The notes beneath the pieces are model-generated. The model saw only the letters and a program-made list of their open reading frames with translations. It did no database searches and was not told the origin of the DNA. From positions 62,001-126,000 of the forward strand of contig CANIHD010000004.1 in the NCBI GenBank assembly GCA_947467345.1: 64,000 bases of DNA, given 5' to 3'. Position 1 is the first letter of the stretch, and the number at the start of each line of letters is the position of its first letter. The translations under genes and the position numbers were made by a program. Shown one piece after another: positions 3,969 through 18,044 of this stretch. This stretch comes from Alphaproteobacteria bacterium. GTDB lineage: Bacteria; Pseudomonadota; Alphaproteobacteria; Micropepsales; Micropepsaceae.

Positions 3969-4892
3969 TCAGGTAGCGAGCGCTTGAGCGTTTTCCGGTG
4001 TCTTGCCGCGAATGAATTGCCCCATCCGTGTCAGCGACACACCGGCCTCCGAGAGCGTCGGGTTGCCCTGAAACACGTGCTGCATGCCGTCATAGATCTC
4101 GACCGAAATCGGTCTGTTCGCGGCGGCAGCTAACCCACCGATCCTACTGGCATCATCGCGCAGCAATTCCAGCGAGCCGGCGTGGACCATGATCGGCGGC
4201 ATGTCGCGGAAGGTACCGAAAACCGGCGAGGCGAAGACATCCCACGCTTGCGAGTTTTGCAAATAGTGGCGAGCGCTCGCGAAAAGCAGTGGCCACGACA
4301 GCACATTGTCCGTCGGCGCATTGTTGAGCATCGACCAGCCCGAGAGCGATAGATCCGCCCAGGGTGACATGGCGACACAAGCTGCCGGCAGCGGCAGGCC
4401 GGCATTACGGATAGCGAGCAACCCCGCAAGCGCCAGACCACCGCCCGATCCATCGCCGGCAAAAACAATCGCGCTGGGCGGATAGGTTTTGCCGATCAAG
4501 AAACGATAGGCGTCGACCACATCGCGCAGCGCGGCAGGAAAGGGAAATTCCGGTGCCAAGCGATAACGCAAGGTGAGAGCGGCTGAGGCGGCGGACTTGC
4601 ACAGGCGCGCGACGAGCGGCCGATGCGATTCCGGAGAGCCGGCGATGTAGCCGCCACCATGGAGATAGAACACAAGGCGATGGGGCTGCGTTTCAGCAAC
4701 ACGAAGCCATTCACCTTTGACCTGGCCGAGATTCGCATGTTCGACCTGCATGTCGCGCGGCGCCTCGCCATAGCCTGCGGCGATGCGATCATACTGCGCT
4801 CTGAAATCGGCAAGCGTGTGCGGCGCAGCTACAGCGCGCGGACCGAGCAGCCGCGTGAAATGCCGTGAAATACCTTTGTCGCCGTTCGACAC
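3969..4892 (-). CDS. Alpha/beta hydrolase, hormone-sensitive-lipase (family IV) type esterase
   Basis: The 307-residue protein carries the HGGG oxyanion motif (YLHGGGYIAGSP, near 77-88) and the nucleophile elbow in the form GDGSGGG, which corresponds to GDSAGG of family IV. The usual catalytic Asp (LELLRDDASR region) and His (DGMQHVFQ, near 275) follow. It therefore probably hydrolyses short-chain esters. The start is a GTG without a strong ribosome site, so the N-terminus is uncertain. It is convergent with the pentapeptide gene, with only six bases between their ends. No signal peptide is visible. Confidence 0.87.
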   Translation of the reverse strand: MSNGDKGISRHFTRLLGPRAVAAPHTLADFRAQYDRIAAGYGEAPRDMQVEHANLGQVKGEWLRVAETQPHRLVFYLHGGGYIAGSPESHRPLVARLCKSAASAALTLRYRLAPEFPFPAALRDVVDAYRFLIGKTYPPSAIVFAGDGSGGGLALAGLLAIRNAGLPLPAACVAMSPWADLSLSGWSMLNNAPTDNVLSWPLLFASARHYLQNSQAWDVFASPVFGTFRDMPPIMVHAGSLELLRDDASRIGGLAAAANRPISVEIYDGMQHVFQGNPTLSEAGVSLTRMGQFIRGKTPENAQALAT

Positions 4893-11978: not shown

Positions 11979-12007
11979 TTGATTACGCACTTGCGAAACC
12001 GCATATT
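11979..12007 (+). promoter_or_regulatory. Sigma70-type promoter of a candidate small RNA
   Basis: TTGATT (11979-11984) and CATATT (12002-12007) are separated by 17 nt, the optimal housekeeping spacing. The predicted start is at about 12013-12014, directly at the base of the first RNA hairpin. Confidence 0.6.
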
Positions 12008-12012
12008 GTTGC

Positions 12013-12106
12013 AGCGCGGTATTCCGCCCCCCCCCGTTCGCAGTACCGCTGCCCTTCCTGGGCGTTTCCTCCCTAACTTGGCCGCCCCCTCAGGGGCGGC
12101 CATTTT
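12013..12106 (+). ncRNA. Candidate trans-acting small RNA (alpha-r14/MmgR-like layout)
   Basis: This orphan unit of about 94 nt has a promoter, no open frame with a ribosome site, and a strong terminator. The 5' hairpin pairs GCAGC..GGUA with UACCGCUGC around a C-rich loop. The linker is single-stranded and contains CUUCCU and UUUCCUCCCU, which are complementary to Shine-Dalgarno sequences. That layout (5' hairpin, UUUCCUCCCU, GC terminator) resembles the alphaproteobacterial alpha-r14/MmgR (suhB) small RNAs. Family membership is from memory of the layout only. It sits between the LpxH-like gene and the broken amidohydrolase. Confidence 0.6.
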
Positions 12107-12110
12107 TCTT
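12080..12110 (+). terminator. Intrinsic terminator of the small RNA
   Basis: GGCCGCCCC and GGGGCGGCC form a perfect 9-bp stem with a 4-nt loop, followed by ATTTTTCTTT. No protein gene ends upstream on this strand. Confidence 0.9.
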
Positions 12111-12169
12111 TCAGGGCCCAGGCTTTTCCTGAGTTTATTGGCCTTTTGGGAATTGAACGGTCTTTCGCG

Positions 12170-13095
12170 CTATTGCGCGGCGAGACGTGCGGCGTCGTCC
12201 GAACGGGCAACTAGGCCGGGCGCATTTATAAGCGCTGCAACAAAACGGGTGAACAGGGCCTGGCATTGGGCAAAGCCCTGCGTTTTTTCGATCCGCTTTT
12301 CATCCATGTAGAGCCCGCGATTGATCTCGAGCTGGAGCGCGTGAAAGCCTGCAGACGGGCGGCCATGAAGGCTTGTGGGTAGCCACCGGCGTACGGGCTG
12401 TTGCGGCCCACGCGAAAGCCCAGCCCTTTCAGTGCGGCCTCAACGAACTCGGTCAGCTCAGCTCCGGCGGCCTCGCCGTGGCAATCGCCGATAACGATGT
12501 CGTGGCCGCGCGCCAGCGGCGGCATCGAATGGCAATCGATCAGAATCGCCGCGCCGAATTGCGTCCGCGCCTCGTTCAGCAATTGCACCAACCGAAAATG
12601 ATAGGGCCGATAGAAATGGGCGAGCCGGAAGTCCGCTTCCGAAGCGAGTATCCGGCGACGATAGATTTCAACGCCTTCTTTCACGACTCGGGGAATAACG
12701 CCGAGCCCCGCCGCCACACGCACTGTGCGCTGCATCGGCAAGGGTTCTATTGAACCGTCGAACATATGCGGATCGAGCTATTTTTCGGCGCGATTCACAT
12801 CGACATAGGCGCGTGGAAAGTGAACCTTTATCAGCGTGGCGCCATAGGCGGGTGCCGCTTCAAACAATTGATCGACATACGCATCTTCGGAACGGCGCAA
12901 ATCCATTGCGTCGAGCCGGCTGGCGGCAATGAAACTGAGCGGATATTCGCTGCCGCTATGAGGCGACGCGAAAATGAAAGGCGCCGGCTTATGAATGGGT
13001 CCGACAACGGTAAACGGGGTCCGCTGTAACGCCCCGAGAACAGGATCGGCAGCTAAAGCGGGTGTCGCTTCTGGATGAGGACCGAATAGAGTCAT
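12170..13095 (-). pseudogene. N-formylglutamate amidohydrolase (HutG2-like), disrupted
   Basis: Two lesions break an otherwise full-length gene of about 308 codons. An in-frame TAG (12778-12780) follows VDVNRAEK and precedes LDPHMFDG; relatives have Glu there, so GAG to TAG is the simplest change. Near 12385 one base is missing in a CCC after NSPYAGGY; in the +1 frame the expected ending resumes (SLHGRPSAGFHALQLEIN, then LYMDEKRIEKTQGFAQC). The N-terminal SPHSGSEYP and the IDCHSMPP motif are intact. The start at 13095 has AGGT upstream. An N-formylglutamate amidohydrolase gene beside cpdR is a common alphaproteobacterial arrangement. A second family member survives at 37628. Confidence 0.88.
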
Positions 13096-13324
13096 AGCTA
13101 CCTGGATTCGAGTCGTTAACAAGGCGCCTTGAGGAGTGGACGCCCTGACGTGCGCAAATTCAAGGACGAAGCGGCAACGATCCGGACCTCGTGTACCAAA
13201 CCCTATGCAACCGGCCGCGCGTTAACTGGCTTCGCGCAAACAAGCTTCACGCGCCCACGCTTCATGCTATCTGGCATTTACGCTTTTCTCTTTATAGAAA
13301 GAGATACGGGGGAATTCGAGACGC

Positions 13325-13684
13325 ATGGCCAGCATACTTCTTGCCGAAGACGATGAGTCCATGCGCCGCTTTTTGGCTGCTGCATTGGAACGCGCCGGCC
13401 ATATCGTGACCGCATGCGGCGACGGCTCGGAGGCGTTTGAAGCGCTGCTGGGCCTCGAATACGATCTTTTGCTCTCGGATATCGTTATGCCGGGTCTCGA
13501 TGGAATCGAGTTGGCCAAGCGCGCCGCCGAACTTCATCCCCGACTCAAAATCATGTTCATCACGGGCTTCGCCGCCGTCGCGCTACATCCAGCGGCTGAA
13601 GCGCCGAAGCAAGCCAAGGTGCTTTCGAAACCATTTCACCTGCGCGAAATCGTGCAGGAAGTGGAGCGCATGATCGCCGCGTAG
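13325..13684 (+). CDS. cpdR: Response regulator CpdR
   Basis: The 119-residue stand-alone receiver domain starts ILLAEDDESMRRFLAAALERAG (acidic pair Asp9-Asp10), has the phosphoacceptor Asp52 in LLLSDIVMPGLDGIELA and the invariant Lys in AKVLSKPFHLREIV. The segment KIMFITGFAAVALHP and overall length match Caulobacter CpdR almost throughout. CpdR, when unphosphorylated, targets ClpXP to the pole and primes substrates such as PdeA and, indirectly, CtrA for degradation; the CckA-ChpT relay phosphorylates it. It diverges from the broken amidohydrolase gene. Confidence 0.95.
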   Translation: MASILLAEDDESMRRFLAAALERAGHIVTACGDGSEAFEALLGLEYDLLLSDIVMPGLDGIELAKRAAELHPRLKIMFITGFAAVALHPAAEAPKQAKVLSKPFHLREIVQEVERMIAA

Positions 13685-13716
13685 GCGTGGCGCCGTCACG
13701 CCACCGACCATTTTTT
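13682..13716 (+). terminator. Possible terminator of cpdR
   Basis: GGCGTG and CACGCC (or GTGGCG and CGCCAC) can form a 6-bp stem directly after the cpdR stop codon. A run of six T residues follows after a few bases. The stem is short, so this is tentative. Confidence 0.45.
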
Positions 13717-13849
13717 CGCGTTAACGAATTGCGGCATTCGCGTGGGGTGTTGCGCCGGGCGAACACCCTGCGCCACAGTGTTCCATCTCACTTTCGTTTT
13801 GTCAGAATTTCGTTCTAATGCTCCGCATGAATCGCGCGGGGGCCGATAG

Positions 13850-14578
13850 TTGAGTACCCGTTATCCGGAGGTGCTCAAGTTCATCGATGGACTTGAGGCA
13901 ATAGAACAAGCGGAACGGGTCTGGGATTCGCTTCTAGCGTTTACCTCCCAGAGCGGGCTTCCGTATGGCGAAATCATCGACATTCCGGGACCCGCCGAAT
14001 CCTTGGAAGAGGCGACGCTCTGCGTGCGCTATCCCGAGGAATGGCGGCGGCGCTAAATCAGGCGCAATTACATCCGCAAAGATCCGGTCATCCTCCATCT
14101 ATTGCGCGCCACCGAGCCCTATAGCTGGACCGAGGTGCTGGAATTTCCCGACTACACCAAGGCGCAGCGGCGCGTGCGCCAGGAGGCTGCTGAATTCGGC
14201 CTTCGTGAGGGCTATGTCGCGCCCATCGTGGGGCTTCGCACCGGAACGGCGATTGTGCAGTTCGCGGGGTTGGCCGCCGATCTTGGCACGCATGCGCGGG
14301 CCGAACTTCGCTTGGCCGCGATTTATGCCCATGCCCGCATTCGTGCGCTTTCCACGACAGGCCGCCATGCGCCGCCGCCCGCGCCCCTGACGCTGCGTGA
14401 GCGCGAATGCCTGCAATGGGTGGCGGTCGGCAAGAGCGATTGGGAGATCGGCGAAATTCTCTCGATCAGCGAAAAGACCGCGAATTTCCACGTCGAACAG
14501 GTCAAACGGAAATACAATGTCGCGACCCGGGTTCAAGCTGTCGTCCAGGCGATACGCGCCGGCGCCATTCAACCCTAG
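13850..14578 (+). pseudogene. LuxR-family quorum-sensing regulator with in-frame stop at the signal-binding Tyr
   Basis: A 242-codon LuxR frame starts at TTG 13850 (GGGGG about 8 nt upstream). It is intact except for TAA at 14054-14056. After the stop the same frame continues IRRNYIRKDPVILHLL, the rest of the autoinducer domain, and a complete GerE helix-turn-helix (TLRERECLQWVAVGKSDWEIG, then SEKTANFHVEQVKRKYNV). In TraR numbering the visible residues are Trp57 (EEW), Asp70-Pro71 (KDP) and Trp85 (SYSW position), so the stop stands exactly at Tyr61; TAC to TAA would explain it. No luxI gene is in the window. A DNA-binding-only product starting near 14099 is conceivable. Confidence 0.85.
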
Positions 14579-15146
14579 AGCGCAAAAGCGGGCGCAAAGC
14601 GCCCAATTCTCACCAGCGTATACCCGGCTAGGTCATCACCGAGATGCGCTTCAAGGCGGTGCGACTCATCATTCTCTCTGGTCGCATAGCATGGGGGAAA
14701 CGCAGGCCGTTCGGCACTTTACGACACCGAATAGAGCTTGTGCGGCGACGAATGGCCGAGCCGAAACGCGGCGCCGAAAACCGGTTTCCTTCGCGTGCGA
14801 GACGGAATGAGAAGGGTGATGCCATCAACGGAAGTCGGTGGATCGCGTTCGCCGAAATAAGTTAGCGGCACGTCCTTCTCGCGTGGTGGCGGCACCTGCG
14901 GTCCCCCTGTGGCTGCCGTCACCACGTCAGTTTTTTTTGCAAAATGGCTGTTTTTGCAAATTGCGGATTCATTAAGGTTTTTCAACCGCATCGCGAGCAT
15001 ACAAAGCTGAATAATGCTATAGCAGGGCAGGAAATACTCTTTGCCTGCGCTGTAGCTTTGCTGCGGTGAACGCCCTATTGATGGGCCTATTCCAAATCTA
15101 CATTGGCTGCGATGGGCGATTGATCGTCGCGCTTGGAAAGGTTGCG
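14579..15146. other. 568-base stretch without a convincing gene
   Basis: Short frames on both strands have Arg-rich, low-quality translations and no ribosome sites, so I call none. A GGGCGC-AAA-GCGCCC hairpin lies just after the luxR frame. The main landmark is a strong terminator at 14882-14938. The part after 14940 is AT-rich and probably holds the promoter of the GcrA-like gene. Confidence 0.6.
14882..14938 (+). terminator. Strong terminator hairpin with T8 tract
   Basis: GTGGTGGCGGCA (14883-14894) pairs with TGCCGTCACCAC (14914-14925) across a 19-nt loop, with a single wobble pair. Eight T residues follow at 14931-14938. The nearest upstream frame on this strand (luxR) ends 300 bases earlier, so either its transcript has a long 3' region or a small RNA ends here. 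Confidence 0.72.
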
Positions 15147-15446
15147 ATGGCTACGACTGGATTACGACAAGCGGAAACCGACAACGGCACAATCACCACT
15201 TCACCGCAGCTTCCGGCGTTGCGTCCGGTCGAAAGCGTGCCGCGCAAACTCGCCAATGGAAAATTCGTCACCACCGCGACGCTGACCAATCGCACATGCA
15301 AATGGCCGATCGGCGATCCGGCGCAGCCCGGCTTTCATTATTGCGGACAGTCGCCGCGGCTGGGGCAGCCTTACTGCGAAGTGCACGACAACATGAGCTA
15401 CCAGAGCGCCTCACGCAAAAAGGTACCGGTTAAGCCGATCGTTTAA
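15147..15446 (+). CDS. GcrA C-terminal-domain-only protein
   Basis: The 99-residue product ends in NRTCKWPIGDPAQPGFHYCG, then GQPYCEVHDNMSYQ, the Cys/His-rich signature of the GcrA family C-terminus. The N-terminal helix-turn-helix of GcrA, normally starting MSWTDERVELL, is absent; residues 1-45 are Thr/Pro-rich. In Caulobacter the C-terminal domain of GcrA binds sigma70 domain 2 and the N-terminal domain binds methylated GANTC sites. This protein could therefore touch RNA polymerase without a DNA site. I start at ATG 15147 because GGAAAGG lies 5 nt upstream. It could also be a decayed paralogue. Confidence 0.8.
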   Translation: MATTGLRQAETDNGTITTSPQLPALRPVESVPRKLANGKFVTTATLTNRTCKWPIGDPAQPGFHYCGQSPRLGQPYCEVHDNMSYQSASRKKVPVKPIV

Positions 15447-15695
15447 CCGCATCCCTAAGGCGTGAACTGGGTATCATTGAATTTCGTGCTCGCGCGAATG
15501 GGCTTAGCGGAGTAGCGTTCACAGAGCCAGAAAGACTCTGTGAAGTCTATCCGAGCGACCGGCCATCTACCGCTCATCTCATGCGCGCCACATACCGCGC
15601 GCGAAGGTGGGAATTTCGGATGGGATGGCGTTGGCCTCGGTCCATCGTTCCGGCGCCTGATCATAATCTCGTCCGCGCTTGCAACAGGGAACCCA

Positions 15696-15986
15696 ATGAA
15701 CGAACCGGCAAAGCCAAAAAATGCGGCGCAGAAAAACGCGCAGAACTATTTTACCACTGTCGAACGTAACGAAACCGCTTCCAAGCAAATTCGGAAAAAA
15801 GAACGCAGTGCCGAAGCTGTTAAGACTGCAAAATTGCGCGAGTTGCGTCTCGCCAAAGAAGCTGTCGATAAGGAAGCTGCAGACAAGCTAGCCGCGGAGA
15901 CAGCAGCCTTGCCGCCGAGCGAAACCGCCCGGCGCAAACGCGCCCCCGCCGTTAAAGCCGCCCCGCGCGTACGGATGATCTACTGA
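15696..15986 (+). CDS. Conserved alphaproteobacterial small protein, unknown function
   Basis: The 96-residue protein starts MNEPAKPKNAAQKNAQNYFT and has the segment NYFTTVERNETASKQIRKKE, followed by a Lys/Ala/Glu-rich helix (AKLRELRLAKEAVDKEAADK) and a basic Lys/Arg/Ala tail. Small proteins with a YFTTxERN segment and such a helix occur in many alphaproteobacteria, without known function. It is probably a coiled-coil or nucleic-acid-associated protein. I start at 15696, where AGGGAA precedes the ATG. The 249 bases before it hold no gene. Confidence 0.72.
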   Translation: MNEPAKPKNAAQKNAQNYFTTVERNETASKQIRKKERSAEAVKTAKLRELRLAKEAVDKEAADKLAAETAALPPSETARRKRAPAVKAAPRVRMIY

Positions 15987-16025
15987 ACGCGCAATCTGCG
16001 TTGTTGCAAATTTGAAGGAGTGAGC

Positions 16026-16307
16026 GTGCGCGATCATTTGGCGCCGAAGCCGACTTGGTCGTTCCTCGATCCGTTTCGTAGGTTTGGCGCTTGGCTGGGC
16101 GTTACTGCGGCGAATGCCGGCCGCAACGACGCGTCGGATCCACATGCAACTTACAGAAACTGTCCGAAATGCGGGAAGCGGGATTTTCGCATGAGCGACC
16201 GGCAGAGGGCGCGCCCGGAAATCTATCGCTCACGCGACTTCCTGGTGAAATGGCTGTGCCTTGGCTGCGGCCACCGCGAAACGGCGCATATCGTCGAGCC
16301 GGAATAG
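16026..16307 (+). CDS. Small zinc-ribbon protein, unknown function
   Basis: The 93-residue product has CPKCGKRDF (about 46-54) and CLGCGHRE (about 79-86), a four-cysteine zinc ribbon. The N-terminus (MRDHLAPKPTWSFLDPFRRF) is basic and aromatic with no signal peptide. I prefer GTG 16026 over GTG 16020 because GAAGGAG ends five bases before it. It is convergent with the hybrid kinase gene, with eight bases between ends. I do not recognise a characterised relative. Confidence 0.68.
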   Translation: MRDHLAPKPTWSFLDPFRRFGAWLGVTAANAGRNDASDPHATYRNCPKCGKRDFRMSDRQRARPEIYRSRDFLVKWLCLGCGHRETAHIVEPE

Positions 16308-16315
16308 AGTTCCGC

Positions 16316-18044
16316 TTACGCCGATTCCGAAGCGCGCGGGGCGGTCACGCGTGAAACCACCTGCACCAGATCTTCGAATTTGTAGGGTTTGCGTAAGACC
16401 GGAAAGCTGGCATCCAGCGTTGCGGTGCCGCTGAATCCCGACGTGAGCACAATCGGCGTATTCGGATAGCGCTTATGAAGCTCGCGCGCCAAATCCACGC
16501 CATTCATCGCACCCGGCATGACGATGTCGGAAAAAATGAGGTCGTAGGTGCAGCGTTCCTCGACGGCATTCAGCGCCGCTTGCGCGCTCGCCACCCGTGT
16601 CGGCGTGTATCCCATTTCCCGGAGCATCTCATCGACGGCATTGGCAACTGCGTCGTCATCCTCGACCACGAGCACCGATTTTCCGGCGATATGATTCAAC
16701 AGCGGGTCATTCGCCGCGGCGGCTATCGGCTTCGCGGCGGGTTCGTTCGAGCGTGGCAAAAGAACGATGACGCTGGTGCCTTCATTCGTCACGCTCTCGA
16801 TGCGGATATTGCCGCCGCTTTGCGAAACAATGCCGTAGAATTGGCTGAGGCCCAGCCCAGTGCCTTGGCCAATTTGCTTGGTGGTGAAATAGGGTTCGAA
16901 TACACGGAGCAAAACATCGGCCGGCATGCCCAGCCCAGTGTCGCTCACCCTAATCTCGACGAACTCACCATCGGGGCGTGTTTCATTTTTCGCGCTGACC
17001 GTGAGCACGCCACCTTTCGGCATAGCGTCACGCGCATTGACCGCCAGGTTTAGGATGGCGACTTCAAACTGCGTGGGGTCCGTCTTCACCGGCCACAGAT
17101 CCCGCGCGGTGTTGATGTCGACCAATATATCCGCGCGCAAGGACCGCGCGAGAAGCTCGCGCATACCGCGCAAATGCATGGCCAGATCGATGGCTTCCAG
17201 TTTGAGCGTCTGACGGCGGGCCAATGCCAATAATTGGCGGGTCAGCCCCGCCCCACGTTCAAGGGCTTGGCGCATGGCTTCGACGGTAGCCGCGCGGCGC
17301 ACGGGATCGGAATGGCGTTCCATCAAGCGCAAGCCGCTTTGCACCACCATGAGAAGATTGTTGAAATCATGCGCCACACCGCCGGTCAATTGGCCGATGG
17401 CTTCCATCTTTTGACTCTGCAGCAGCGCTTCTTCGGCGCGTTTGCGTTGCTCGATTTCCTGCTGCAATTGCTGCGCGCGTGCCGCGAGTTCGGAATTGAC
17501 CTGCGAGAGCGCCCCCCTGTGCAAGGCCGAGAACCGTAAGCACCAGCGCCGCCAGCAGAATGAGCACGCCCACGCCCGCATAACGTGAAAAGCGCCGCAG
17601 CGGCGTCTCCGCATCCGTGCGCAAATAGACAGCGCCGAAGACCTGACCGTCTCGATAGACCGGTGTCACGGCGACGATCGACGAATTTTCGAAGTATGGA
17701 GCATGCACGGCGGCAGTGGCAGGCGGCTGCGGCTCGTCGCGCCGGTTATAGGTCGCGATGCGGGCGCCGCGGGAATCATAAACCGCCGCTGCGGACACGC
17801 CGGGATTTGCGCTGAGCGCCTGCAGATATTGCGCCGCGCTTCCATTGTCCGAGAACATCAATGCGGGCGCCACGCTCGCTGAAATGATCTGCGCCTGAAC
17901 ACCGATTTCGCGGGCTTTTTGGTCGTTATACGTGCGCTCATTGAAAGCGACCATGACAAGGCCGAGCAGCATCAGCGCAATGGCCGCTATCATCGCGATG
18001 GCGCGCCCGGATCCTAGCAGTGCGGTTGTCCATAAAGGCGTCAT
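16316..18044 (-). pseudogene. CHASE8 hybrid histidine kinase, frameshifted in a C6/G6 run
   Basis: One gene is split into two frames at the homopolymer 17511-17516. Reading five instead of six G residues joins them into a 575-residue protein. N-terminal part: membrane helix (about 12-34), CHASE8-like periplasmic domain (EIGVQAQIISASVAPALMFS and following), second helix (about 155-180). C-terminal part: coiled coil, HisKA H-box GQLTGGVAHDFNNLL, N-box NLAVNARDAM, DTGLGM, GTGLGLSQFYG, then a receiver domain (VLVVEDDDAV, phosphoacceptor in FSDIVMPGAMNG). It overlaps yfiR by four bases and so belongs to the TonB receptor-YfiR unit. Sequencing error or phase variation are both possible. Confidence 0.85.

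Follow-up and report, generated by a model that had tools for sequence, protein, structure and literature searches.

A stand-alone gene for the sigma-interacting domain of GcrA in a Micropepsaceae genome, and its possible competition with GcrA

GcrA is a principal link between DNA methylation and the cell cycle of Alphaproteobacteria. Passages of PMC7403470 describe a division of labour within the Caulobacter crescentus protein, in which residues 108–173 bind sigma domain 2 and residues 1–45 bind methylated DNA. The same bacterium has a second family member, GcrB (CCNA_01269), which according to parts of PMC3885167 is 44% identical to GcrA and partly compensates for its loss, and GcrA homologues of phiCbK-like phages are mentioned in parts of PMC3556154. 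Among other activators that act on sigma domain 2, Crl works on sigma-S without DNA contact, and GcrA, RbpA and GrgA have extra DNA-contacting domains, as set out in sections of PMC6917491. We found no description of a stand-alone GcrA sigma-interacting domain (SID) in the open library searched for GcrA.

The window, that is, the whole stretch of 64,000 nucleotides that was analysed, comes from a relative of Caulobacter and contains a gene encoding such a domain together with the following features:

13325-13684, + strand: cpdR, response regulator (NCBIfam CpdR, 188.4 bits against a cut-off of 180)
13850-14578: luxR/autoinducer-type regulator with an in-frame TAA at 14054-14056
14966..14970, no strand assigned: GATTC, a GANTC (CcrM-type) site about 177 nt 5' of the SID gene start
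15135..15141, + strand: likely ribosome-binding site GGAAAGG (from sequence), 5 nt before the ATG
15147..15446, + strand: stand-alone GcrA SID gene, 99 aa, ATG start, stop included
15147..15260, + strand: N-terminal segment in place of the helix-turn-helix (HTH) and linker, predicted disordered, without HTH
15261..15422, + strand: GcrA SID, residues 39-92 (PF07750 match, AlphaFold2 model and 5yix_B alignment)

Residues 39–92 of the 99-aa protein match positions 99–152 only of the 155-position Pfam GcrA profile PF07750 (hmmscan; E 1.1e-15, 58.8 bits, cut-off 26.9 bits), and the protein retrieved the PDB GcrA chains 5yix_B and 7ye1_G in a phmmer search. It scores 52.8 bits against the NCBIfam full-length GcrA equivalog (NF050816), whose threshold is 280 bits. 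Using HTH models built from 24 GcrAs of the family and then iterated, we detected no GcrA-type HTH in the ORF or within 900–1200 nt upstream on the same strand. A search of all six frames of 12000–18000 gave just one match at chance level (E 0.4, 2.6 bits) and ruled out a frameshift or an upstream HTH remnant. A longer alternative frame starts with GTG at 15066 and encodes 126 aa, but it lacks a ribosome site and adds no HTH. The protein thus has the SID of a two-domain GcrA, lacks its N-terminal HTH and falls below the equivalog score; the gene belongs to the grouping of stand-alone SIDs proposed here, defined by a SID for which neither the ORF nor the sequence before it encodes a GcrA HTH. 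These results bear out an earlier note on this DNA, which had described a SID-only protein with an intact Cys/His-rich GcrA signature, preceded by a good ribosome site.

An AlphaFold2 model, made with 67 aligned SIDs, has pLDDT values of about 90–91 at residues 41–80 and of 57–59 at residues 1–40; this first segment, with no notable helix or strand, looks disordered in the prediction. The model aligns to 48 of the 48 residues of 5yix_B, the Caulobacter GcrA SID in complex with sigma70 domain 2 (rmsd 1.5 Å, Z 6.9, 44% identity). Only GcrA chains were used from the structure-library ranking, and three of the eight best Foldseek chains compared reached Z 2, all three of them GcrA. The window protein therefore resembles GcrA (PF07750; NF050816; PDB 5yix, 7ye1, 7ye2) in SID sequence, in predicted fold and in its conserved Cys, His and Trp residues, whereas it has a short, predicted disordered N-terminus instead of the HTH and is 99 aa long, against about 147 for the GcrA of the same genome. 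Like GcrB, it is a second GcrA-family gene beside gcrA, a likeness drawn from the published description and not from domain content. The phiCbK-like phage homologues are likewise GcrA-family proteins outside the core gene, but they also carry the HTH (L159). As for Crl, RbpA and GrgA, which parts of PMC7403470 and PMC6917491 present as sigma domain-2 activators, the window protein would likewise act on sigma region 2; the likeness is one of target, with no sequence relation claimed, and the target of Crl is sigma-S.

The genome (2.49 Mb in 25 contigs, 96% complete) also holds one full gcrA (G000:C2:153146-153568), which matches positions 1–153 of the profile with E 7.6e-50, so that the complete copy presumed to exist elsewhere is now located. 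The single PF01555 methyltransferase, a 375-aa protein encoded on contig C16, has long matches with 62–76% identity in all seven genomes tested, and we take it to be CcrM-like on these matches, not from a family model. CpdR is a cell-cycle response regulator, and its gene, which has the same orientation as the SID gene, lies about 1.5 kb before it, so that the order along the stretch is cpdR, the luxR remnant and the SID gene; a gene for N-formylglutamate amidohydrolase precedes cpdR on the opposite strand. The interruption of luxR reflects either a pseudogene or a sequencing error. The window ORF list contains no sigma gene beside the SID gene.

The single GANTC in the promoter region of the SID gene corresponds to about chance density, given 157 such sites in the window, or one per approximately 408 nt. 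Across the whole window, GANTC is rarer than expected (157 observed against 289 from shuffles). A scan of 14560–16050 found no sigma70-type promoter and three terminators against 2.6 expected, and the Rfam search had no match at E 0.1.

Across 66 other SIDs, conservation reaches 90% or more in 19 columns, and the window protein agrees at 17 of these, the two deviations being F65Y and A84S. Compared with the SID of the gcrA in the same genome, it is identical at 26 of 52 amino acids and 97 of 156 nucleotides; these identities include 14 of the 19 conserved positions and 12 of the 33 others. When neutral drift from that gcrA SID to the same nucleotide identity was simulated, none of 5000 runs retained 14 or more of the 19 positions (6.6 on average), and 69% of the runs acquired a stop. 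Since drift never kept 14 of 19, most of the divergence of the window SID appears to have occurred under selection, a result that covers the periods before and after the HTH was lost without separating them.

In a tree of 89 SIDs (48 columns), the window SID falls outside the GcrAs of its family, weakly near a SID-only copy of a congener (G003). AU tests reject neither this pairing (p 0.495) nor the alternative in which the window SID joins the GcrAs of the family (p 0.255). A mobile source of the SID-only form was not found among the phage and plasmid GcrA-like genes: nine of nine fetched loci, drawn from 36 matches (21 phage records and 15 plasmid records), and 14 of 14 loci on viral contigs carry an HTH with the SID.

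GcrA matches were present in 87 of 96 genomes of the family searched with PF07750, and the SID-only matches clearly above the cut-off were the window gene and the one in G003; no close orthologs of the window gene came up in this search. At the locus itself, the same search found a SID gene in none of six congeners, several of them incomplete (G001 and G002 are just 63 and 74% complete), and unrelated genes follow cpdR in G004 and G006. The G003 ORF encodes 95 aa in a similar layout, with other neighbours on its contig and no synteny; its SID is identical to that of the window at 23 of 40 amino acids, with 13, 10 and 22 nucleotide differences at the three codon positions. The earlier note had suggested looking for conservation of the truncated form in relatives, and at this locus the search came out negative, the G003 copy sitting elsewhere. 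Its counter-case, that relatives have a full gcrA at this very position, has no bearing here, as the full gene is located elsewhere. Genome G030 has a frameshifted GcrA-family paralog split over two frames (L063, G030:C7, about 4370-4880, - strand).

GcrA-family matches occurred in 77 of 123 evenly drawn alphaproteobacterial genomes. In five of the 123 (G000, G096, G145, G154 and G161), a SID-side match had no HTH-side match at its place, and HTH scans of the fetched stretches agree; the G154 SID is the most diverged of the five, and its match carries a flag for one TAG. A sixth candidate (G186) was removed from the count because it has internal stops and no SID match, L073 and L111 were set aside as cut by contig ends, and L064 was left out for its weak SID (E 0.0052). 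L065 and L066, whose match to the HTH model is absent or marginal, were also left out, as by eye they were judged to be diverged forms with both domains. In the viral contigs L183 and L184, the SID follows a long N-terminal part that does not match the GcrA HTH model, and these were not counted.

Six of 385 genomes, spread over three families, have a 63-aa SID type (RGCLWPMW...YCG...SSYC..H): G096, G161, G280, G373, G450 and G459. Seven further rows of this search are other GcrA-family genes; those inspected, with G339 and G135 lying outside the inspection, are two-domain forms except in G380, where a SID lies in a 74-residue open frame of its own. Two loci deserve separate listing:

L187, L188 and L189, 1501-1698, - strand: 63-aa stand-alone SID gene with syntenic flanks in three genomes of one genus
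L176, 2410-3464: prophage-like stretch of G145 with a sigma-factor gene and an overlapping SID gene

Among the three genomes of one genus, dN is 0.021–0.049 and dS 0.54–1.28 (dN/dS about 0.03–0.04), and, judged from these sequences, the 63-aa type is under strong purifying selection there. In G145, the SID frame and the end of a sigma-factor gene (PHROG, E 3.9e-38; sigma-70 regions 2 and 4) overlap, and the stretch also occurs within an IMG/VR viral contig. The pairing of sigma and SID was seen once, as L181, a viral sigma gene related to that of G145, lacks a neighbouring SID. These other stand-alone types are distant from the window protein (23–31% identity in alignment A1). A two-domain GcrA is also encoded in nine of the 10 other genomes with a stand-alone SID, while in the tenth, G096, a stand-alone SID and a CcrM-like gene occur with no detected GcrA; competition with GcrA is thus not the general role of stand-alone SIDs. 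In Pseudovibrio exalbescens, the C-terminal part of gcrA is repeated identically about 1.5 kb downstream of the full-length gene (L103, 6655-6976), as a partial duplication or an assembly error.

We tentatively favour, at somewhat less than even probability, the reading that the window protein is a ligand of sigma70 domain 2 that lacks DNA binding and competes with GcrA, with competition and function inferred from the comparisons above. The gene would encode a free SID of the GcrA family, predicted to fold like that of GcrA, which, judging from the fold and the conserved residues, would dock on sigma70 domain 2 in the RNA polymerase holoenzyme. Having no domain for methylated GANTC, it would occupy the place of GcrA without promoter choice, and if the sigma70 site is the same, the two proteins must compete. 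When expressed, it would then lower GcrA-dependent activation at methylated promoters, as a built-in antagonist or attenuator; its expression, sigma70 binding and competition are all presumed here. This reading draws on the SID-only match, the fold match over 48 of 48 residues, the 17 of 19 conserved positions and the presence of a full gcrA and a CcrM-like gene, and further on the two-domain GcrA in nine of 10 genomes, the selected 63-aa type and the sigma overlap in G145. Against it stand the lack of conservation of the locus in congeners, the in-frame stop in luxR and the sigma70-type promoter not found. The same three points favour its main rival, a diverged GcrA-family gene that lost its HTH and left a remnant ORF open by chance or on its way out: the luxR stop means that the stretch may be decaying, no ortholog occupies the locus in congeners, the scan of 14560–16050 revealed no promoter-like site, and partial gcrA duplicates do arise, as in L103. 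We consider such decay unlikely, although it is the strongest of the rivals, because an ATG and a ribosome site stand exactly before the fragment, no HTH remnant was found upstream, the conserved positions are kept while the rest has diverged, and G003 has a similar layout. As similar small proteins recur in a few other bacteria and in a prophage, the window gene may be a true small regulator and not simply a damaged gene.

Another reading, by analogy with Crl, is a DNA-independent cofactor that would bind sigma domain 2 and stabilise the holoenzyme or open complex at many promoters. Besides the precedent of Crl on sigma-S in parts of PMC6917491, conserved 63-aa SIDs exist, including one in G096, where no GcrA was found, and a further type adjoins a sigma gene in G145; those SIDs are, however, of other, distant types, and we regard this role as rather improbable for the window protein. 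It is more doubtful still, indeed quite improbable, that the protein serves another sigma factor or another partner in place of sigma70: the G145 SID gene overlaps a phage-type sigma-factor gene, but the window gene has no adjoining sigma gene and its residues are close to the GcrA consensus.

As a natural free SID, the window protein would bring a further level of control, by competition for sigma70, into the GcrA/CcrM circuit. It would also offer a ready test of whether docking on sigma domain 2 alone activates, inhibits or does nothing. More broadly, though with considerable doubt, stand-alone SIDs, the window gene included, could form a recurring, so far unnamed class of 60–100-aa sigma domain-2 ligands in Alphaproteobacteria and in prophages of this class. 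Such ligands would modulate RNA polymerase without binding DNA, in some cases by antagonising GcrA and in others in partnership with a sigma factor of their own; the 63-aa type, which is conserved, and the prophage type linked to a sigma gene would be independent examples. Downstream of the SID gene, the window contains a small zinc-ribbon-like ORF (16020-16307) with a weak Cas12f1-TNB-like Pfam score, under the cut-off.
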